Virus record (IMG/VR): IMGVR_UViG_3300046656_000100
Location: 1 to 43,345 of that record
Direction: 5' to 3' (one strand)
DNA length: 43,345 bases
Source: a virus
The notes beneath the pieces were generated by a model that did not search any database, had not been told where the DNA came from, and worked only from the letters and a program-made list of their open reading frames with translations. This document shows, piece by piece, positions 12,721-22,390 of this stretch (position 1 is its first letter; every line of letters begins with the position of its first letter). The position numbers and the translations under genes were made by a program.

Positions 12721-13908
12721 CTACTCATTGGCTGGTCCTACCCATCGTTTGCCTTGTTTGCCGCGGCGCATGATGTTTTTCTTGGTCCAGCCAGCTAATC
12801 GGAGGATACGGCCGACCCTCAGCTCATCCGCGCGACCAATCTGGGCGGCGTCAAATTTGAGTATACGGATGAGCACTTCAGCGACGGTAATTTCTGTGTC
12901 GAGGCCAATCCCGGCGAAGACGAGGTCGGTCCATGCATCATCGGCTTGGCGATCGGCTTGGACAGCGAGGGTAGGGAGCGTCGGCGTGATCCACCACGGT
13001 TCGCCGGCCTGCACGCGATAGACGGCTTCAGCGAGGAGCTGCGTGCGGGCCGTGGCGAGCGATTCGAGGTTGACGAGGCCGCAGCGAATGGGCCAAAAGC
13101 GCCGCAAGCCGGTTTCATCAGCGCCCCACCCGTCATGGTTGGTCGTGCCGGCAAAGATGCATTGACGAGGATGGTCAGCCGCGTAATGGCCATAACTCAC
13201 ACGATAGCGATCGGTGGGCGTGCTGATGACGGTTTTGACGCGACTCACTTCGGCACGGCTGAAGGCGTCGAGCTCACCGATTTCAATCACCCATTTGCCT
13301 TGGAGGCCCTCAAAGAAATCCTTATGCGTGACGGATTCATGCGCTTGGGCGTAATACGCCCCGCCGAGGATGCGTAAGGCGGATGTCTTGCCGATGCCTT
13401 GGCCGCCTTCAAACACGACCATCGTGTCGAGTTGACAGCCAGGACGCAGCACGCGAGCGACGAGGCCCAAGAACAGATTCGCGCTGACGGCGCGCACATA
13501 GGCGCAGGGCATCGTCTCGCCACACTCGACGCCCCAATGGTCCTCCAGCGCGAGGTTAATCCGGGGCGTCTCGTCCCATGTCAGCGTGCAGAGGTTATCG
13601 CGCACGACATGGCGCAGACGTTGGCTGGCGACATAATGCACCGCTTTTTTCACTTCGGTCGTCGTCATGGCGGGAATGCCGATCGTCTGCTGCATATGCG
13701 CCGTAAGACGATACGTGTCGGCTTCGTCCCACTCCCGGGGCATATCGCCAGTGGGGCAGGTCATGAGGCGATCGAGGAATTCATCGCGCCAGAGCACGTC
13801 AGGCCCGTAAGCGCCATCATGCTGGAGCACGCCCACGGCGTTGGAGAGATTCGCCCGTAGACCGCGCTCGCCGCGGTCGAGATGAGCAATCCACGAATAA
13901 TCAGGCAC
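12721..13908 (-). CDS. VapE-type SF3-like helicase/ATPase
   Basis: 395 aa. Walker A GGQGIGKTSAL at 168-178, Walker B-like WVIEIGELD at 206-214, and a sensor-type FAGTTNHDGW at 252-261 followed by RRFWPI at 269-274. These are the diagnostic motifs of the virulence-associated E family of phage and satellite replication ATPases. The usual N-terminal primase part is missing, so it probably acts as initiator/helicase. With no polymerase in the window, it is the best candidate for starting replication. GTG at 13908 follows AGAGGTGG. It lies just downstream of the methyltransferase cluster and just upstream of the repeat-rich AT segment. Confidence 0.85.
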   Translation of the reverse strand: MPDYSWIAHLDRGERGLRANLSNAVGVLQHDGAYGPDVLWRDEFLDRLMTCPTGDMPREWDEADTYRLTAHMQQTIGIPAMTTTEVKKAVHYVASQRLRHVVRDNLCTLTWDETPRINLALEDHWGVECGETMPCAYVRAVSANLFLGLVARVLRPGCQLDTMVVFEGGQGIGKTSALRILGGAYYAQAHESVTHKDFFEGLQGKWVIEIGELDAFSRAEVSRVKTVISTPTDRYRVSYGHYAADHPRQCIFAGTTNHDGWGADETGLRRFWPIRCGLVNLESLATARTQLLAEAVYRVQAGEPWWITPTLPTLAVQADRQADDAWTDLVFAGIGLDTEITVAEVLIRILKFDAAQIGRADELRVGRILRLAGWTKKNIMRRGKQGKRWVGPANE

Positions 13909-13999: not shown

Positions 14000-14716
14000 C
14001 TACTCTACCAAACTCAACGGCATCTGCGTCCGTTCGTTTCTTACCGTGTCATCGCCCAATAGGAGGACGTCTTGCGCGAGACGGTTCGCGGCGATCTCGC
14101 AGTAGCGTTCTTCGCGTTCAATGCCGACGCATTGACGGCCGAGGCGTTTGGCAGCGACTAGCGTCGTGCCGCTGCCCATAAATGGATCAAGAACGAGCGA
14201 TGCGTTCGGGAAGAATCCGAGGCACCACTGCATTAGAGATTCTGGTTTCTGCGTCGGATGCACTCGCTGATTCGCGATAGCGTTGTTCGATAAATCACGA
14301 CGGCAATACACTCCGTGCCCCTTACTCATCCATGCCAACTCTGCGTCACTCAGGAATGATCCGAATGCGGCATCGTTCCTCTTCAACCACACCAAGCAGG
14401 CGCCTCTTGGCAATAGGTTTGGATAGTGATTCCAGCCCCAGATCACTTGGTCGCGTCCGATAGTCAGGAGAAACGATGGATCGAACGGCTTGTCATCGTT
14501 CGCAATAGGGCGACCACCGGACGAACCTATGCCATTGCCGCGCTTCGCAATGTTCTCCTTCGTGCCACCAGAGAACCGACTATTATCGGTATCCAGTGAG
14601 ACTCCGTAGGGTGGATCCGTCAGGAGCAGATCGACGCCAAACCACACGGAAGGAAGCACCTCTCGGCAGTCGCCGTGGTAAATCGTCATCCCACCGTGTT
14701 CATAATAGGGTGTCAT
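14000..14716 (-). CDS. DPPY-type DNA methyltransferase (N6-adenine likely)
   Basis: 238 aa from ATG 14716. Catalytic motif DPPYGVS at 34-40, HPTQKPESLM at 153-162, and the SAM-binding motif DPFMGSGTT at 177-185 followed by CVGIEREERY. The order (catalytic motif before the FxGxG motif) is that of beta-class amino-methyltransferases. DPPY usually means N6-adenine, though N4-cytosine is not excluded. It starts in an ATGA overlap with the nuclease gene, so the C5 methylase, nuclease and this enzyme form one translational block. It probably protects phage DNA from host restriction. Confidence 0.88.
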   Translation of the reverse strand: MTPYYEHGGMTIYHGDCREVLPSVWFGVDLLLTDPPYGVSLDTDNSRFSGGTKENIAKRGNGIGSSGGRPIANDDKPFDPSFLLTIGRDQVIWGWNHYPNLLPRGACLVWLKRNDAAFGSFLSDAELAWMSKGHGVYCRRDLSNNAIANQRVHPTQKPESLMQWCLGFFPNASLVLDPFMGSGTTLVAAKRLGRQCVGIEREERYCEIAANRLAQDVLLLGDDTVRNERTQMPLSLVE

Positions 14717-15105
14717 GTCAGTTGTGTCCGCAACCACTCAATCGTCTCGACGCTGGCGAGCTGCTTCGGCGTGAATTGGAACACCTTCCAGCCAGCGGCT
14801 TGCGCCAGATTCAGCTTTTCATAATCGCGCTGGAGGCCCTTGCGCGTGGAATGGTCGCGAAAGCCTTGCTGCTCCACGATGATTTTCTGCAGGGGCCAGC
14901 AATAATCTGCGCGGAAATCCCGGTCGGCCAGGAACAGCACTTCGCGAGCCGGGATGGGCAGCTTGGCCGCGGCGCACAGCTCCATGAAGCGATCGAAGGG
15001 CTGGGCATGGGGCCGCAGCGGCAAGGGGAGCGGAGGCGCGAGGCCATCCATGCGACGGCGGAAGGCGGCGTATTCTTCTTCCGTCCAGCGCAGCCCGTGG
15101 CTCAT
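14713..15105 (-). CDS. PD-(D/E)XK-like endonuclease (Vsr/DUF559-type)
   Basis: 130 aa from ATG 15105, chosen because it makes an ATGA overlap with the C5 methyltransferase stop. RDFRADYCWP (D67), KIIVEQQG (E78, with Q80 in place of the usual third catalytic residue), then DHSTRKGLQRDYEKLNLAQ and GWKVFQFTPKQL give the layout of small phage PD-(D/E)XK nucleases related to Vsr/DUF559. Those proteins pair a strand Asp with ExE/ExK and a HTRG-like loop. It is sandwiched between two DNA methyltransferases. It may be a mismatch, junction or restriction-like nuclease; activity is not certain because of the Gln. Confidence 0.7.
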   Translation of the reverse strand: MSHGLRWTEEEYAAFRRRMDGLAPPLPLPLRPHAQPFDRFMELCAAAKLPIPAREVLFLADRDFRADYCWPLQKIIVEQQGFRDHSTRKGLQRDYEKLNLAQAAGWKVFQFTPKQLASVETIEWLRTQLT

Positions 15106-15926
15106 GGATGCCATGCCTGGGCGATATGCGTGGCGAGAGCCAGCGGGATCTTGGCGATGTGCGCGGAGGCGGCTTTGCGGGCCGATGACTGACTGCCTGA
15201 TTTGCAAATGCCGTTGTCGAACCAGGCGGCACCGCTGCCCTTCTGTTTCCGCCCGTCTGGGTTCTGCCCGTGTCCGCTCGTCGTGTTGTGTGCGACATTG
15301 AACCAGGAGCCGCCGTCGTTCTTCGTGGCCGCAATCGCCCGATTCATGTCTCCCTCGCGGTTGCTAAATTTTGTTTTATCGAACCATGATCCACCGCGAA
15401 AACCACCTTGAGACGATCCCACAAATTTAGACAGTGCCTCATGGACCTGTCCACCCTTACCGCTATTGCGATGCCTAGCAAACGGCATGAGCGCCGGCAC
15501 ATCGCCCCACAGATAAAAACTCCCATAGTGCCACCGGGCACGTCCCACCCATTTCTGCGCCCCGCAGACGTTCTCCACGACCAGCGGAATGTGATGCCCC
15601 GCCGCCTCGCAGGCTTCCCGCTGAATCCGAAAGCAGGCATCGAACAGTTCATTCGACGGCGGCGACAAGGCTTTCGCACGTTTCCACGGCATCGCCCGAT
15701 ACGAATACGCCTGACACGGCGGGCTGGCGACAATCAACGCCACGTCCTTGAACTGCCGCCCGTGCAGCGTCAGCACGTCCTGGATCACGAGCTGCGCCGG
15801 ATACCGGGCCTCGCCGTAGATGTGCTGTTCGTTATCGAAGCCGATGACGCGGTAGCCAGCGGCGAGCAGTCCTTCGGTCCATCCGCCGAGGCCGCAGAAG
15901 AGGTCGATGGCGAGCGGCTTAGGCAC
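15102..15926 (-). CDS. C5-cytosine DNA methyltransferase
   Basis: 274 aa from GTG 15926; a longer frame reaches back to 16019 but would overlap the upstream gene by about 100 bases. Motif I AIDLFCGLGGWTEGL (about 6-20), motif IV VASPPCQAYS with the catalytic Cys at about 71, motif VI LVVENV at about 115-120, an RARWHYGSF segment resembling motif VIII, and a C-terminal IAKIPLALATHIAQA region in motif X position. The target-recognition part is short and rich in GGSWF/AAWF patterns, so specificity cannot be guessed. Part of the overlapping methylase-nuclease-methylase block. Confidence 0.87.
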   Translation of the reverse strand: MPKPLAIDLFCGLGGWTEGLLAAGYRVIGFDNEQHIYGEARYPAQLVIQDVLTLHGRQFKDVALIVASPPCQAYSYRAMPWKRAKALSPPSNELFDACFRIQREACEAAGHHIPLVVENVCGAQKWVGRARWHYGSFYLWGDVPALMPFARHRNSGKGGQVHEALSKFVGSSQGGFRGGSWFDKTKFSNREGDMNRAIAATKNDGGSWFNVAHNTTSGHGQNPDGRKQKGSGAAWFDNGICKSGSQSSARKAASAHIAKIPLALATHIAQAWHP

Positions 15927-16134
15927 TCGCCATCTGCGATTCCGTGTAACGGCGGATTTCCTCGCGTCGGTCATTGATTTGCTGGCGCAGCGCCGCATTG
16001 TGTCGCAGCAGTTCGCCATTCTGGGCCAGCAGGATCTGGCTCATCTCCCGGTAAATGACGACCTCTTGTTCCAACTCAGCCACATCGGCGGCGAGGTGTT
16101 CCAGCACGGCTTGCACAACGTGTTCTTTCGACAT
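15919..16134 (-). CDS. Small coiled-coil protein, first gene of leftward block
   Basis: 71 aa from ATG 16134 (a longer frame starts at 16161). Nearly all helix with heptad character (HLAADVAELEQEVVIYREM, then LLRHNAALRQQIND), so a dimeric coiled coil is likely. It is the most upstream gene of the leftward unit, facing the divergent control region, and its end overlaps the GTG of the C5 methyltransferase. No family recognised. A regulatory or adaptor role is possible. Confidence 0.65.
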   Translation of the reverse strand: MSKEHVVQAVLEHLAADVAELEQEVVIYREMSQILLAQNGELLRHNAALRQQINDRREEIRRYTESQMASA

Positions 16135-19549: not shown

Positions 19550-19659
19550 TGGCTGCCATGTGGGCGCGGTTGCTGCGCTGGCTATTCGTGCCATCGTTCG
19601 ATCCGCAGATGTCCGATGAATGGAGAACGAATCACTTATACACGTCCGGTAAATCATAA
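19546..19659 (+). CDS. Short hypothetical protein, 37 aa
   Basis: Starts MMAAMWARLLRWLF, an amphipathic hydrophobic helix, followed by a polar tail (DEWRTNHLYTSGKS). ATGA coupling with the previous gene and a ribosome site for the next gene at its stop fit operon organisation. May be membrane-associated. Confidence 0.45.
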   Translation: MMAAMWARLLRWLFVPSFDPQMSDEWRTNHLYTSGKS

Positions 19660-19669
19660 GGAGCCGTGG

Positions 19670-20155
19670 ATGAAATCGCTTGGAATCGCCCTAGTCGTGC
19701 TCATCGGCGTCAGTCTCTCGGCTCAATCCCGCTTTGTTCCCGGCAAGTATCTGTCTCGGCGCGCGGCCCAGATTGTCGAAGTCTCCACCGAGGGCAATTT
19801 CCTGAAGTGGACAATTGGCGCGCATGTCTTTTATTGGGGCGGGAACGGAGACATTCCCCTTGAGGCGCACGACTACGATGGCGATGGCTTGGACGACCCG
19901 ACGATCTATCATCCGCAAACGCACGAATGGTGGATCCTGCGGTCACGTTGCGAGGGCGGGCGCTGGACCTGTTATGACGTGCTGACGATGGCGGCCGTGC
20001 ATACAAGCGCCAGTGAACCGCTGGTGTGCGCGCCAGGCACGGTGCTGGCGCTGGGCGAAGGCGACCCGTATTGTGCGCCGCCGATCCAGACGTTTACCTG
20101 CCCGCCAGGCACGCATATCGCGCTAGGCGACGTCCTGAGTTGTGAGGCGCTATGA
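19670..20155 (+). CDS. Secreted FG-GAP/VCBS-like protein
   Basis: 161 aa, ATG 19670 after AAGGAGCCG. Signal peptide KSLGIALVVLIGVSLSAQ, then one clear FG-GAP/VCBS-like repeat, DYDGDGLDDPTIYHPQTHEW followed by WILRS; the DxDxDG loop would bind calcium. The C-terminal third has paired Cys motifs (CAPGTVLALGEGDPYC and CPPGTHIALGDVLSC) that look like a duplicated disulfide unit. Such proteins are usually extracellular. It precedes the recombination gene with ATGA overlap. It may modify the cell surface, for example in superinfection exclusion; this is speculative. Confidence 0.65.
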   Translation: MKSLGIALVVLIGVSLSAQSRFVPGKYLSRRAAQIVEVSTEGNFLKWTIGAHVFYWGGNGDIPLEAHDYDGDGLDDPTIYHPQTHEWWILRSRCEGGRWTCYDVLTMAAVHTSASEPLVCAPGTVLALGEGDPYCAPPIQTFTCPPGTHIALGDVLSCEAL

Positions 20156-21582
20156 GCGATACGCAGATCGTGCTGATCGACTTCAGCAGCATCGCGCATC
20201 CCATCTGGCACATGGCCGCGAGCGATCCGAATCCGGATGCCACGTCTATTGGCATCATTGCGAAGGTGCGGGCGCTGACGTCAGGCCAGCCGCATGCCGC
20301 CCTCTGCCTGGATTCGCCCAAGTCGTTCCGTCGCGAGATGGACGCGACGTATAAGGCGGCGCGCGAGAGCAAACCGGCCCCATTCTGGCATCAATGCGAG
20401 ATCGCGATGGGAGTCTTAGCGGCTGATGGCTATCCAATGTGGTCGGCGGAAGGCTTTGAAGCCGATGACATTATTGCGTCTGCCGTGCAGTGTGCGAGTC
20501 AACAGGTGCCGCTGATTCGTCCCTTCATGCCGATCGTAATTGTCAGCGCGGATAAAGACTTATTGGCGCTTGTTAGTGGCTACGTCAGCGTCAAGTCACC
20601 CATTACCGGCAATATCATGGACATTGCCGCCGTGAAGGAAAAATTTGGCGTGATGCCAAATCAGATCCGCGATTACCTGACGCTGGTCGGCGATGCGTCA
20701 GACGGCGTCGTCGGTGTCAAAGGCATCGGTGCGAAGGGGGCGGCTGGGCTGCTGACGGCTTATGGGAATCTTGATGATTTATATGCTGCCCTTCCTGAGT
20801 CTGTTGGTCAATTAGCGGCTGATGGCTCTATCAAGCCAGCGCAGATGCTGGCATTGAAGAATTTTCAAGACCGCCTGCCCATCGTCCGCACGTTGCTATC
20901 CCTGCGCGAAGATGCGCCGATAGATTTCGCCGCCGTGCTGAAGGAACGCCAGACCACCGATCGCGAGGATGAGATCATGCAGGACATCGAAGAAGCGATG
21001 CCGACGATTACGCCAGAGGAGCAAGTGGCATTTATCGAACAGGCATCAACCGTCAAGCCAGAGCCGCAGCGCATGTCGCTCGTGCCGATGAATGGCGATT
21101 ATGAACGGCAGCTTGAGCCGCAGAGCATGAATCAAGCCGTGCAGTTGGCGCAGTTGCTGTTCAAGGCTCGATTGTTTGGCGCCTATGGCACGCCAGAAGC
21201 CGTGCTGTCGACAGTGCTCTCAGGTCGCGAATTGGGCCTGTCCGCAATGGCTAGTCTGCGCGCCTTTCACATCGTCGAAGGCAAGCCCACGATGGCGGCT
21301 GATGCCCTCCGCGCGCTCGTCCTGAAGTCAGGGAAGGCGAAGTCGTTCAGGTGCACCGAGCGCACGGCCTCGGCGGCAACGTTCAGCACGCAACGCCAGG
21401 ATGAAGAACCGATGACGCTACGCTATACCATCGAAGAGGCGCAAGCCGCTGGCCTCGTGAAGAACGGCAGCGGCTGGACGAAGAACCCCGCCGATATGCT
21501 CGTCGCGCGGGCCTCAAGCAAACTGGCGCGGCTCGTGTATCCCGACGTGGTGGCTGGCCTCTATGCACCTGAGGAGTTCTGA
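20152..21582 (+). CDS. Fusion: FEN-type 5'-3' exonuclease + annealing-protein-like domain
   Basis: 476 aa in one uninterrupted frame. Residues 1-~215 match the 5' nuclease of DNA polymerase I: Asp10 in IVLIDFSS, YKAARES, GFEADDIIAS (101-110), VSADKDLLAL (131-140), DYLTLVGDASDG (174-185) and the helix-hairpin-helix GVKGIGAKGAAGLL (188-201). After a charged linker (~255-320), residues ~325-476 resemble a phage family often annotated as RecT-like or recombination-associated: LSGRELGLSAMASLRAFHIV, GKPTMAADALRALVLKSG, FRCTERTASAATF, TIEEAQAAGL, WTKNPADMLVARASS and YPDVVAGLY. Exonuclease and annealing protein are normally separate partners; here they share one chain. The second assignment is weaker than the first. 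Confidence 0.8.
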   Translation: MSDTQIVLIDFSSIAHPIWHMAASDPNPDATSIGIIAKVRALTSGQPHAALCLDSPKSFRREMDATYKAARESKPAPFWHQCEIAMGVLAADGYPMWSAEGFEADDIIASAVQCASQQVPLIRPFMPIVIVSADKDLLALVSGYVSVKSPITGNIMDIAAVKEKFGVMPNQIRDYLTLVGDASDGVVGVKGIGAKGAAGLLTAYGNLDDLYAALPESVGQLAADGSIKPAQMLALKNFQDRLPIVRTLLSLREDAPIDFAAVLKERQTTDREDEIMQDIEEAMPTITPEEQVAFIEQASTVKPEPQRMSLVPMNGDYERQLEPQSMNQAVQLAQLLFKARLFGAYGTPEAVLSTVLSGRELGLSAMASLRAFHIVEGKPTMAADALRALVLKSGKAKSFRCTERTASAATFSTQRQDEEPMTLRYTIEEAQAAGLVKNGSGWTKNPADMLVARASSKLARLVYPDVVAGLYAPEEF

Positions 21583-21986
21583 TGACCGCCTACGAATTGG
21601 AAACGGTCGGCCTGCTGAAGCGCATTGACGCCACGCTGGCGGAATTGCTAGCCCTGTCGAAATCGAAGCGTGCCGGGACACCAATGCCCGCTGCGGCGAT
21701 TGATCTCGAAGGCCCCTACGGCGATCCGATCATCAAGGCGAAAGACCCGCGCGACTGGAACGGGCCGTCCATGAACGGCCGGCATCTGTCCGAATGCCCG
21801 CCGGAATACCTCGATCTGCTGGCGTCCCGGTATGACTACTTCGCGGGCAAGGAAGAGGATGAGAAGAAGAAGCGCTATGCCGTCATCGATGCCGCGAAGG
21901 CGCGGGCCTGGGCCGCACGGTTGCGCAGCGGATATCAGCCGAAGGTGGCTGAGCCGATGATTGACGAGGGGCAAATCAAATGGTGA
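21582..21986 (+). CDS. Recombination-associated hypothetical protein
   Basis: 134 aa, starting in a TGATG overlap with the exonuclease-annealase gene. An N-terminal helix (LLKRIDATLAELLALSKS), then DPIIKAKDPRDWNGPSMNGR and LSECPPEYLDLLASRYDYFA, then a basic/acidic helix and ARAWAARLR. I recall similar unnamed proteins beside RecT-like genes in other phages. An ssDNA-binding or recombination-mediator role is possible but not shown. Confidence 0.65.
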   Translation: MTAYELETVGLLKRIDATLAELLALSKSKRAGTPMPAAAIDLEGPYGDPIIKAKDPRDWNGPSMNGRHLSECPPEYLDLLASRYDYFAGKEEDEKKKRYAVIDAAKARAWAARLRSGYQPKVAEPMIDEGQIKW

Positions 21987-22390
21987 CTGACGACGCCCGC
22001 ACCCGACGACTCCGAGAGCTGCGTGAGCATGAACTGAAATGCTGGCCTGAATTCTTTCAGGCGCTCGTGACTGGCGAAAAGACGTTTGAGCTTCGCAAGG
22101 ATGATCGCGGCTATCGCTACGGCGACGTGCTCTGGCTGCGCGAGTGGCGGCGTGAGCGCATCGTGGACGGCGTGGGCATTGGCAATTACACGGGCCGGGA
22201 GATGCGGAGAACCGTCACGTATGTGTTGTCAGGTTTCGGCCTTCAGCCTGATTTTGTGTGCCTTGGGCTGGCCGTGCTGGACACCGAGGGGGACCAACCT
22301 GCCAAATTGCCCTGTGGCTGCTACATCGCGCAGTGTCCGACGCATCGCAGCCAGCCGCCTGCGCTCCCTGATCCTCCGGTGCAGCCATGA
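21980..22390 (+). CDS. DUF3850 / ASCH-like protein
   Basis: 136 aa. HELKCWPEFFQALVTGEKTF, ELRKDDRGYRYGDVLWLREW, then YTGREMRRTVTYVLSGFG and VCLGLAVL give the full DUF3850 pattern, a member of the ASCH/PUA-like superfamily proposed to bind RNA. The C-terminus adds a short Cys-containing tail (PCGCYIAQCPTH), an extra possible zinc site. ATG overlaps the previous gene by seven bases. Confidence 0.82.
   Translation: MVTDDARTRRLRELREHELKCWPEFFQALVTGEKTFELRKDDRGYRYGDVLWLREWRRERIVDGVGIGNYTGREMRRTVTYVLSGFGLQPDFVCLGLAVLDTEGDQPAKLPCGCYIAQCPTHRSQPPALPDPPVQP

Follow-up and report, generated by a model that had tools for sequence, protein, structure and literature searches.

We analysed a window of 43,345 bases that makes up a virus record of IMG/VR (IMGVR_UViG_3300046656_000100) and carries genes for phage capsid, portal, terminase and helicase. 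One open reading frame of this window, starting with ATG and free of internal stops, joins a FEN/Pol I-type 5' nuclease to a RecT/Red-beta-type annealase core. The gene, its parts and its immediate neighbours are as follows.

19616 to 20155, + strand: upstream gene, operon context (its stop overlaps the fusion start, ATGA)
20152 to 21582, + strand: exonuclease-annealase fusion gene (476 aa plus stop; uninterrupted homologous fusions in 39 contigs)
20167 to 20649, + strand: 5'-3' exonuclease N-terminal resolvase-like (PIN) domain, residues 6-166 (PF02739, E 1.6e-24)
20650 to 20937, + strand: 5'-3' exonuclease C-terminal SAM/H3TH domain, residues 167-262 (PF01367, E 1.1e-18)
20947 to 21099, + strand: flexible linker, residues ~266-316 (low pLDDT at 280-316)
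21100 to 21579, + strand: RecT/Red-beta annealase core, residues 317-476, with W442 and R460 (PHROG 561/4171; 7UJL match; AlphaFold2 model)
21582 to 21986, + strand: downstream gene for a 134-aa protein (its start overlaps the fusion stop, TGATG)

The 134-aa downstream protein had no Pfam or PHROG match. ORFs related to it lie near eight fusion loci, mostly directly 3' of the fusion, and it is a possible functional partner. The next gene of the operon (window positions 21980-22390, + strand) encodes a DUF3850/ASCH-like protein (PF12961, E 2.4e-24). Elsewhere in the window, two DNA methyltransferase genes (14000-16019, - strand) adjoin a DnaB/primase-type helicase gene (12721-13908).

The N-terminal half of the fusion, spanning residues ~5-265, is almost certainly a FEN/Pol I-type 5' nuclease domain. 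Both of its Pfam families score above their cut-offs (PF02739, 87 bits vs 34.3; PF01367, 67.9 bits vs 40). The metal ligands are D10, E103, D105, D106, D134 and D136 in the PIN domain, and D181 and D184 in the SAM/H3TH domain. All eight carboxylates are also placed by alignment to Taq and are invariant across 32 aligned fusions, as are Y67, K68 and R71 of the arch motif TYKxxR (residues 66-71). The helix-hairpin-helix starts at residue ~188, and we found every motif where the original prediction had put it (D10, EADD at 103-106, SADKD at 132-136, GDASDG at 180-185 and the helix-hairpin-helix). With every metal ligand invariant, a dead nuclease was disfavoured. Among solved structures, those nearest in sequence belong to Pol I 5' nucleases, E. 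coli ExoIX and a mycobacterial FEN, and the predicted structure superposes on the best ExoIX chains with a target TM-score of 0.86-0.90 at 2.1-2.4 A, further fold matches including FEN and the T5 5' exonuclease. T5 D15, ExoIX and the Pol I 5' nuclease thus resemble this half in fold and motifs but come without an annealase domain, the Pol I nuclease being joined to a polymerase instead.

We consider it near certain that a complete RecT/Red-beta annealase core makes up the C-terminal half. PHROG 561 and 4171, both of RecT-like ssDNA annealing proteins, match residues 322-475 (E 4.1e-24 and 1.7e-19). Pfam RecT stays below its gathering score for the window protein (E 0.0018 with the whole protein, 0.00054 with the domain alone), and a homologue in contig L121 exceeds the cut-off (26.3 bits vs 24). 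When a profile of 34 relatives was compared with the whole PDB, Red-beta (7UJL) was the sole sequence match (E 7.2e-5). A tryptophan and an arginine of Red-beta align with W442 and R460 at an identical spacing of 18 residues, and from this spacing and the published numbering we take them to be W143 and R161 (PMC9512822). Both W442 and R460, the counterparts of residues in the DNA groove, are invariant in the 32 aligned fusions. In Red-beta, W143 is almost universally conserved and R161 touches DNA, its mutation lowering in vivo annealing efficiency about 1000-fold (PMC9512822).

The AlphaFold2 model of the annealase half (mean pLDDT 90.3) presents a hairpin, a helix, three strands and a helix, an order of elements that the cores of LiRecT and RAD52 also have (PMC9772228). 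Out of 350,542 PDB chains, the top two folds were Red-beta (7UJL, E 2.3e-4) and LiRecT (7UB2, E 2.0e-3), each with a match probability of 1.00, at moderate TM-scores (~0.5) and 16% identity. This part of the protein had first been called RecT-like, with a fold comparison proposed as a check. That comparison returned Red-beta and LiRecT as the best matches; together with the profile matches and the conservation of DNA-contact residues, the predicted structure bears the call out and therefore excludes a lack of structural similarity to annealing proteins. In the full-length model, the two confident domains are separated by a disordered stretch at residues 280-316. The linker measures ~50 residues in the window protein, shorter than the ~65 first proposed, and 46-149 aa across homologues.

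Counting the window, 39 contigs encode the fusion in a single unbroken reading frame; 37 are viral and two come from bacterial metagenome-assembled genomes (MAGs; Thermoanaerobaculia, L026, and Myxococcota, L027). A few of them are near copies, and L009 is truncated at the N-terminus. The lowest identity to the window protein is ~31%. A stop, frameshift or assembly join between the domains, named at the outset as fatal to the fusion, is therefore excluded. The UniProt protein A0A6J5MUB0 from an uncultured Caudovirales phage (462 aa, 42% identity) also matches along the whole chain and was the only whole-chain match among those listed from a predicted viral structure library; its database name, "PIN_53EXO domain containing protein", covers the nuclease and not the annealase half. 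We found nothing in favour of an artefact of assembly or annotation that joined two genes and give it practically no weight, since the single-frame contigs stem from many different metagenomes and include two bacterial MAG contigs, and since this database entry matches over the whole length.

Beyond these contigs, no record of a named phage or plasmid covered 80% of the query, the phage matches listed being to one half only, and 379 and 396 genomes sampled from the phyla to which the two MAG contigs belong yielded standalone relatives only, besides L026 and L027 themselves. Among the retrieved relatives, spanning ~31-100% identity, we found no split version of the fusion, and the retrieved loci held no unfused FEN and RecT neighbours of the kind expected of an evolutionary intermediate.

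In a tree of the annealase half, the fused sequences form one group with moderate support (88/85), adjoined by the standalone sequence L204. This grouping holds once the fragments L020 and L198 are set aside; we rejected these two as unfused annealases, both being pieces cut at contig ends. The fused domains also cluster in a tree of the nuclease half (SH-aLRT 100, by a quick method), in a group that takes in L123 and also L010, which runs off the end of its contig. The simplest explanation is that the fusion arose once, long ago. Purifying selection acts on both domains (dN/dS 0.13-0.31 for the nuclease and 0.02-0.20 for the annealase), the linker being less constrained. Seven remote fusion genes (L013, L021, L107, L111, L112, L113 and L122) have, at most 6 kb away, an ORF of a shared family that resembles phage integrase by eye, which suggests that some of the phages concerned are temperate.

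The fusions differ from standalone annealases in how they end. A tail past the core is an accessory that RecT/Red-beta annealases usually have, without being strictly definitive of them. Only 0-14 residues follow the annealase core in the fusions (n=31), as against 61-243 in standalone relatives (n=16), with no overlap between the two ranges, and the window fusion has no C-terminal tail at all beyond the core. Because all fusions share one ancestor, this contrast counts as one evolutionary event and not as 31 independent ones. In phage lambda, dsDNA recombination requires the C-terminus of Red-beta, which also has a part in binding Red-alpha (PMC5052646), and the interaction with the exonuclease is thought to load Red-beta onto the emerging ssDNA (PMC5052646, PMC9772228). 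The annealase core of the fusion aligns with Red-beta and stops at roughly the same point as the Red-beta 1-177 core. Lambda Red differs in being made of two proteins that associate non-covalently, partly via the Red-beta C-terminus, and in having an exonuclease of unrelated fold. With a covalent linker a docking tail would be dispensable, and by analogy the linker of the fusion probably stands in for the exonuclease-binding tail of the lambda type. Nevertheless, Red-beta without its C-terminus still anneals but fails to recombine (PMC5052646). The absence of the tail may thus alternatively indicate that the fusion has lost a function in recombination.

We further considered which exonucleases accompany the standalone relatives of the annealase half, which occur in phages of Gordonia, Thermobifida, Propionibacterium, Arthrobacter, Mycobacterium and Salmonella and in environmental phages. 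In all nine relatives with a recognisable exonuclease, the exonuclease gene lies upstream, with an HNH gene in between in two of them. These partners are annotated as RecE/ExoVIII/Cas4-type exonucleases or are YqaJ/DUF3799 domain genes; no such neighbour was found in the Salinibacter phages, phiKX1 or L204. Firmicutes RecT likewise pairs with YqaJ or DUF3799 (PMC8093625). The order of exonuclease then annealase is common to fusion and standalone loci. In 22 fusion-phage records, which may be incomplete, we found no YqaJ or DUF3799 gene, no family A polymerase and only one SSB. With the usual exonucleases not found in these records and the gene order the same, the fusion therefore seems to take the position of the partner exonuclease, and a FEN-fold nuclease would occupy the place usual for PD-(D/E)XK exonucleases. 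We also considered that the fusion might complete a split phage Pol I, which is disfavoured by the absence of the family A polymerase from these records.

The annealase belongs to the same superfamily as those of the RecE/RecT and YqaJ-RecT (SynExo) systems, and its closest named standalone relatives are encoded downstream of RecE/DUF3799 or YqaJ. SynExo systems consist of separate exonuclease and annealase proteins, whereas here the two are covalently joined in one chain, the exonuclease is of the FEN/Pol I type and not PD-(D/E)XK, and the C-terminal tail of the annealase is gone. A FEN-related exonuclease does take part in another phage system, as gp6 of T7 is of this kind. Recombination in T7 uses gp6 together with gp2.5, which can mediate strand annealing (PMC3276506). 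These are separate proteins, however, and gp2.5 is an OB-fold ssDNA-binding protein, not a RecT. The original prediction had stated that phage recombination usually relies on two partners with an exonuclease of a different fold; this stands as the usual case, with YqaJ/DUF3799 exonucleases of the PD-(D/E)XK type, but is not absolute given T7 gp6/gp2.5.

The shared gene order could also reflect two independent activities in one chain, in which a neighbouring exonuclease gene and recT were fused and are co-expressed without mechanistic coupling. A long, variable (46-149 aa) and disordered linker is what such a fusion might look like, and exonuclease then recT is the usual operon order among relatives. 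We nonetheless regard this explanation as quite improbable, given that no split version was found among the relatives retrieved at ~31-100% identity and that the tail contributing to lambda exonuclease binding is missing only in the fusions.

One contig combines the nuclease with a different annealase. The gene at L123:7989-9713 (IMGVR_UViG_3300032157_000017) encodes 575 aa from its likely start, with a charged linker of ~150 aa, and its nuclease half falls inside the fused clade as sister to that of L121. Its C-terminal half is a single strand annealing protein of PHROG 3290 (E 2.8e-49), with no RecT match and no PDB relative by sequence. This half shares 53-56% identity with proteins from Streptomyces phage ZL12 and from mycobacteriophages, and some of these proteins carry the RefSeq name single strand annealing protein. 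The swap was seen in this one contig; if the contig is sound, the presence of two annealase families on one nuclease lineage argues that the partner serves annealing.

FEN/Pol I 5' nucleases have a classical role in the removal of flaps and primers. FEN enzymes are known above all for removing flaps, and are not known to act as long-range processive resectors of the lambda exonuclease kind. The fusion could be a replication or flap-processing enzyme, in which the RecT core would only tether the nuclease to ssDNA at the fork, and flaps, RNA primers or branched intermediates would be trimmed, annealing not being the purpose. The retention of all metal ligands and of the arch motif, as well as a fold near ExoIX and FEN, agrees with this role. 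We judge it unlikely in view of the 22 fusion-phage records lacking a family A polymerase, of a full annealase core whose DNA-contact residues are kept under strong selection (dN/dS 0.02-0.20), and of the partner in L123, which was swapped for another annealase family and not for a generic ssDNA binder.

The best reading of the locus, which we hold to be probable, is a single-chain phage recombinase that would resect and anneal DNA. At a DNA end, nick or flap, the FEN/Pol I-type nuclease would digest the 5' strand and thereby expose 3' single-stranded DNA, which the tethered RecT/Red-beta core would coat as it emerges and anneal to a complementary strand. The flexible linker would do the job performed in lambda by the C-terminal tail of Red-beta, which helps to bind a separate exonuclease. 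We infer the nuclease activity and its polarity on duplex ends, the annealing activity, their coupling through a direct hand-over of ssDNA, and the formation of oligomers that would accommodate a bulky 30-kDa nuclease on each RecT subunit. More broadly, FEN-type nucleases tethered to an annealase, usually RecT and another family in L123, may form a modular class of single-chain recombinases, in which the linker replaces the protein-protein interface of two-component systems to give a natural one-protein system for dsDNA recombination; taken as a whole, we rate this proposal slightly better than even.

Our search of the open-access literature turned up no account of FEN and RecT being naturally fused, and this single-chain arrangement is apparently previously undescribed, its relative A0A6J5MUB0 being already public. 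In lambda Red, the hand-over of the strand from exonuclease to annealase is still incompletely understood, and an exonuclease combined with a mismatched annealase fails (PMC5052646). With a natural covalent pair, this hand-over becomes directly testable, by altering the linker or splitting the chain, and such a pair might offer a one-gene recombineering enzyme that is independent of specific contacts between separate partners. C-terminal extensions of 150-200 aa, of no known family, are also carried by two other viral FEN-type nucleases (L126:7239-9143 and L137:1887-3293).
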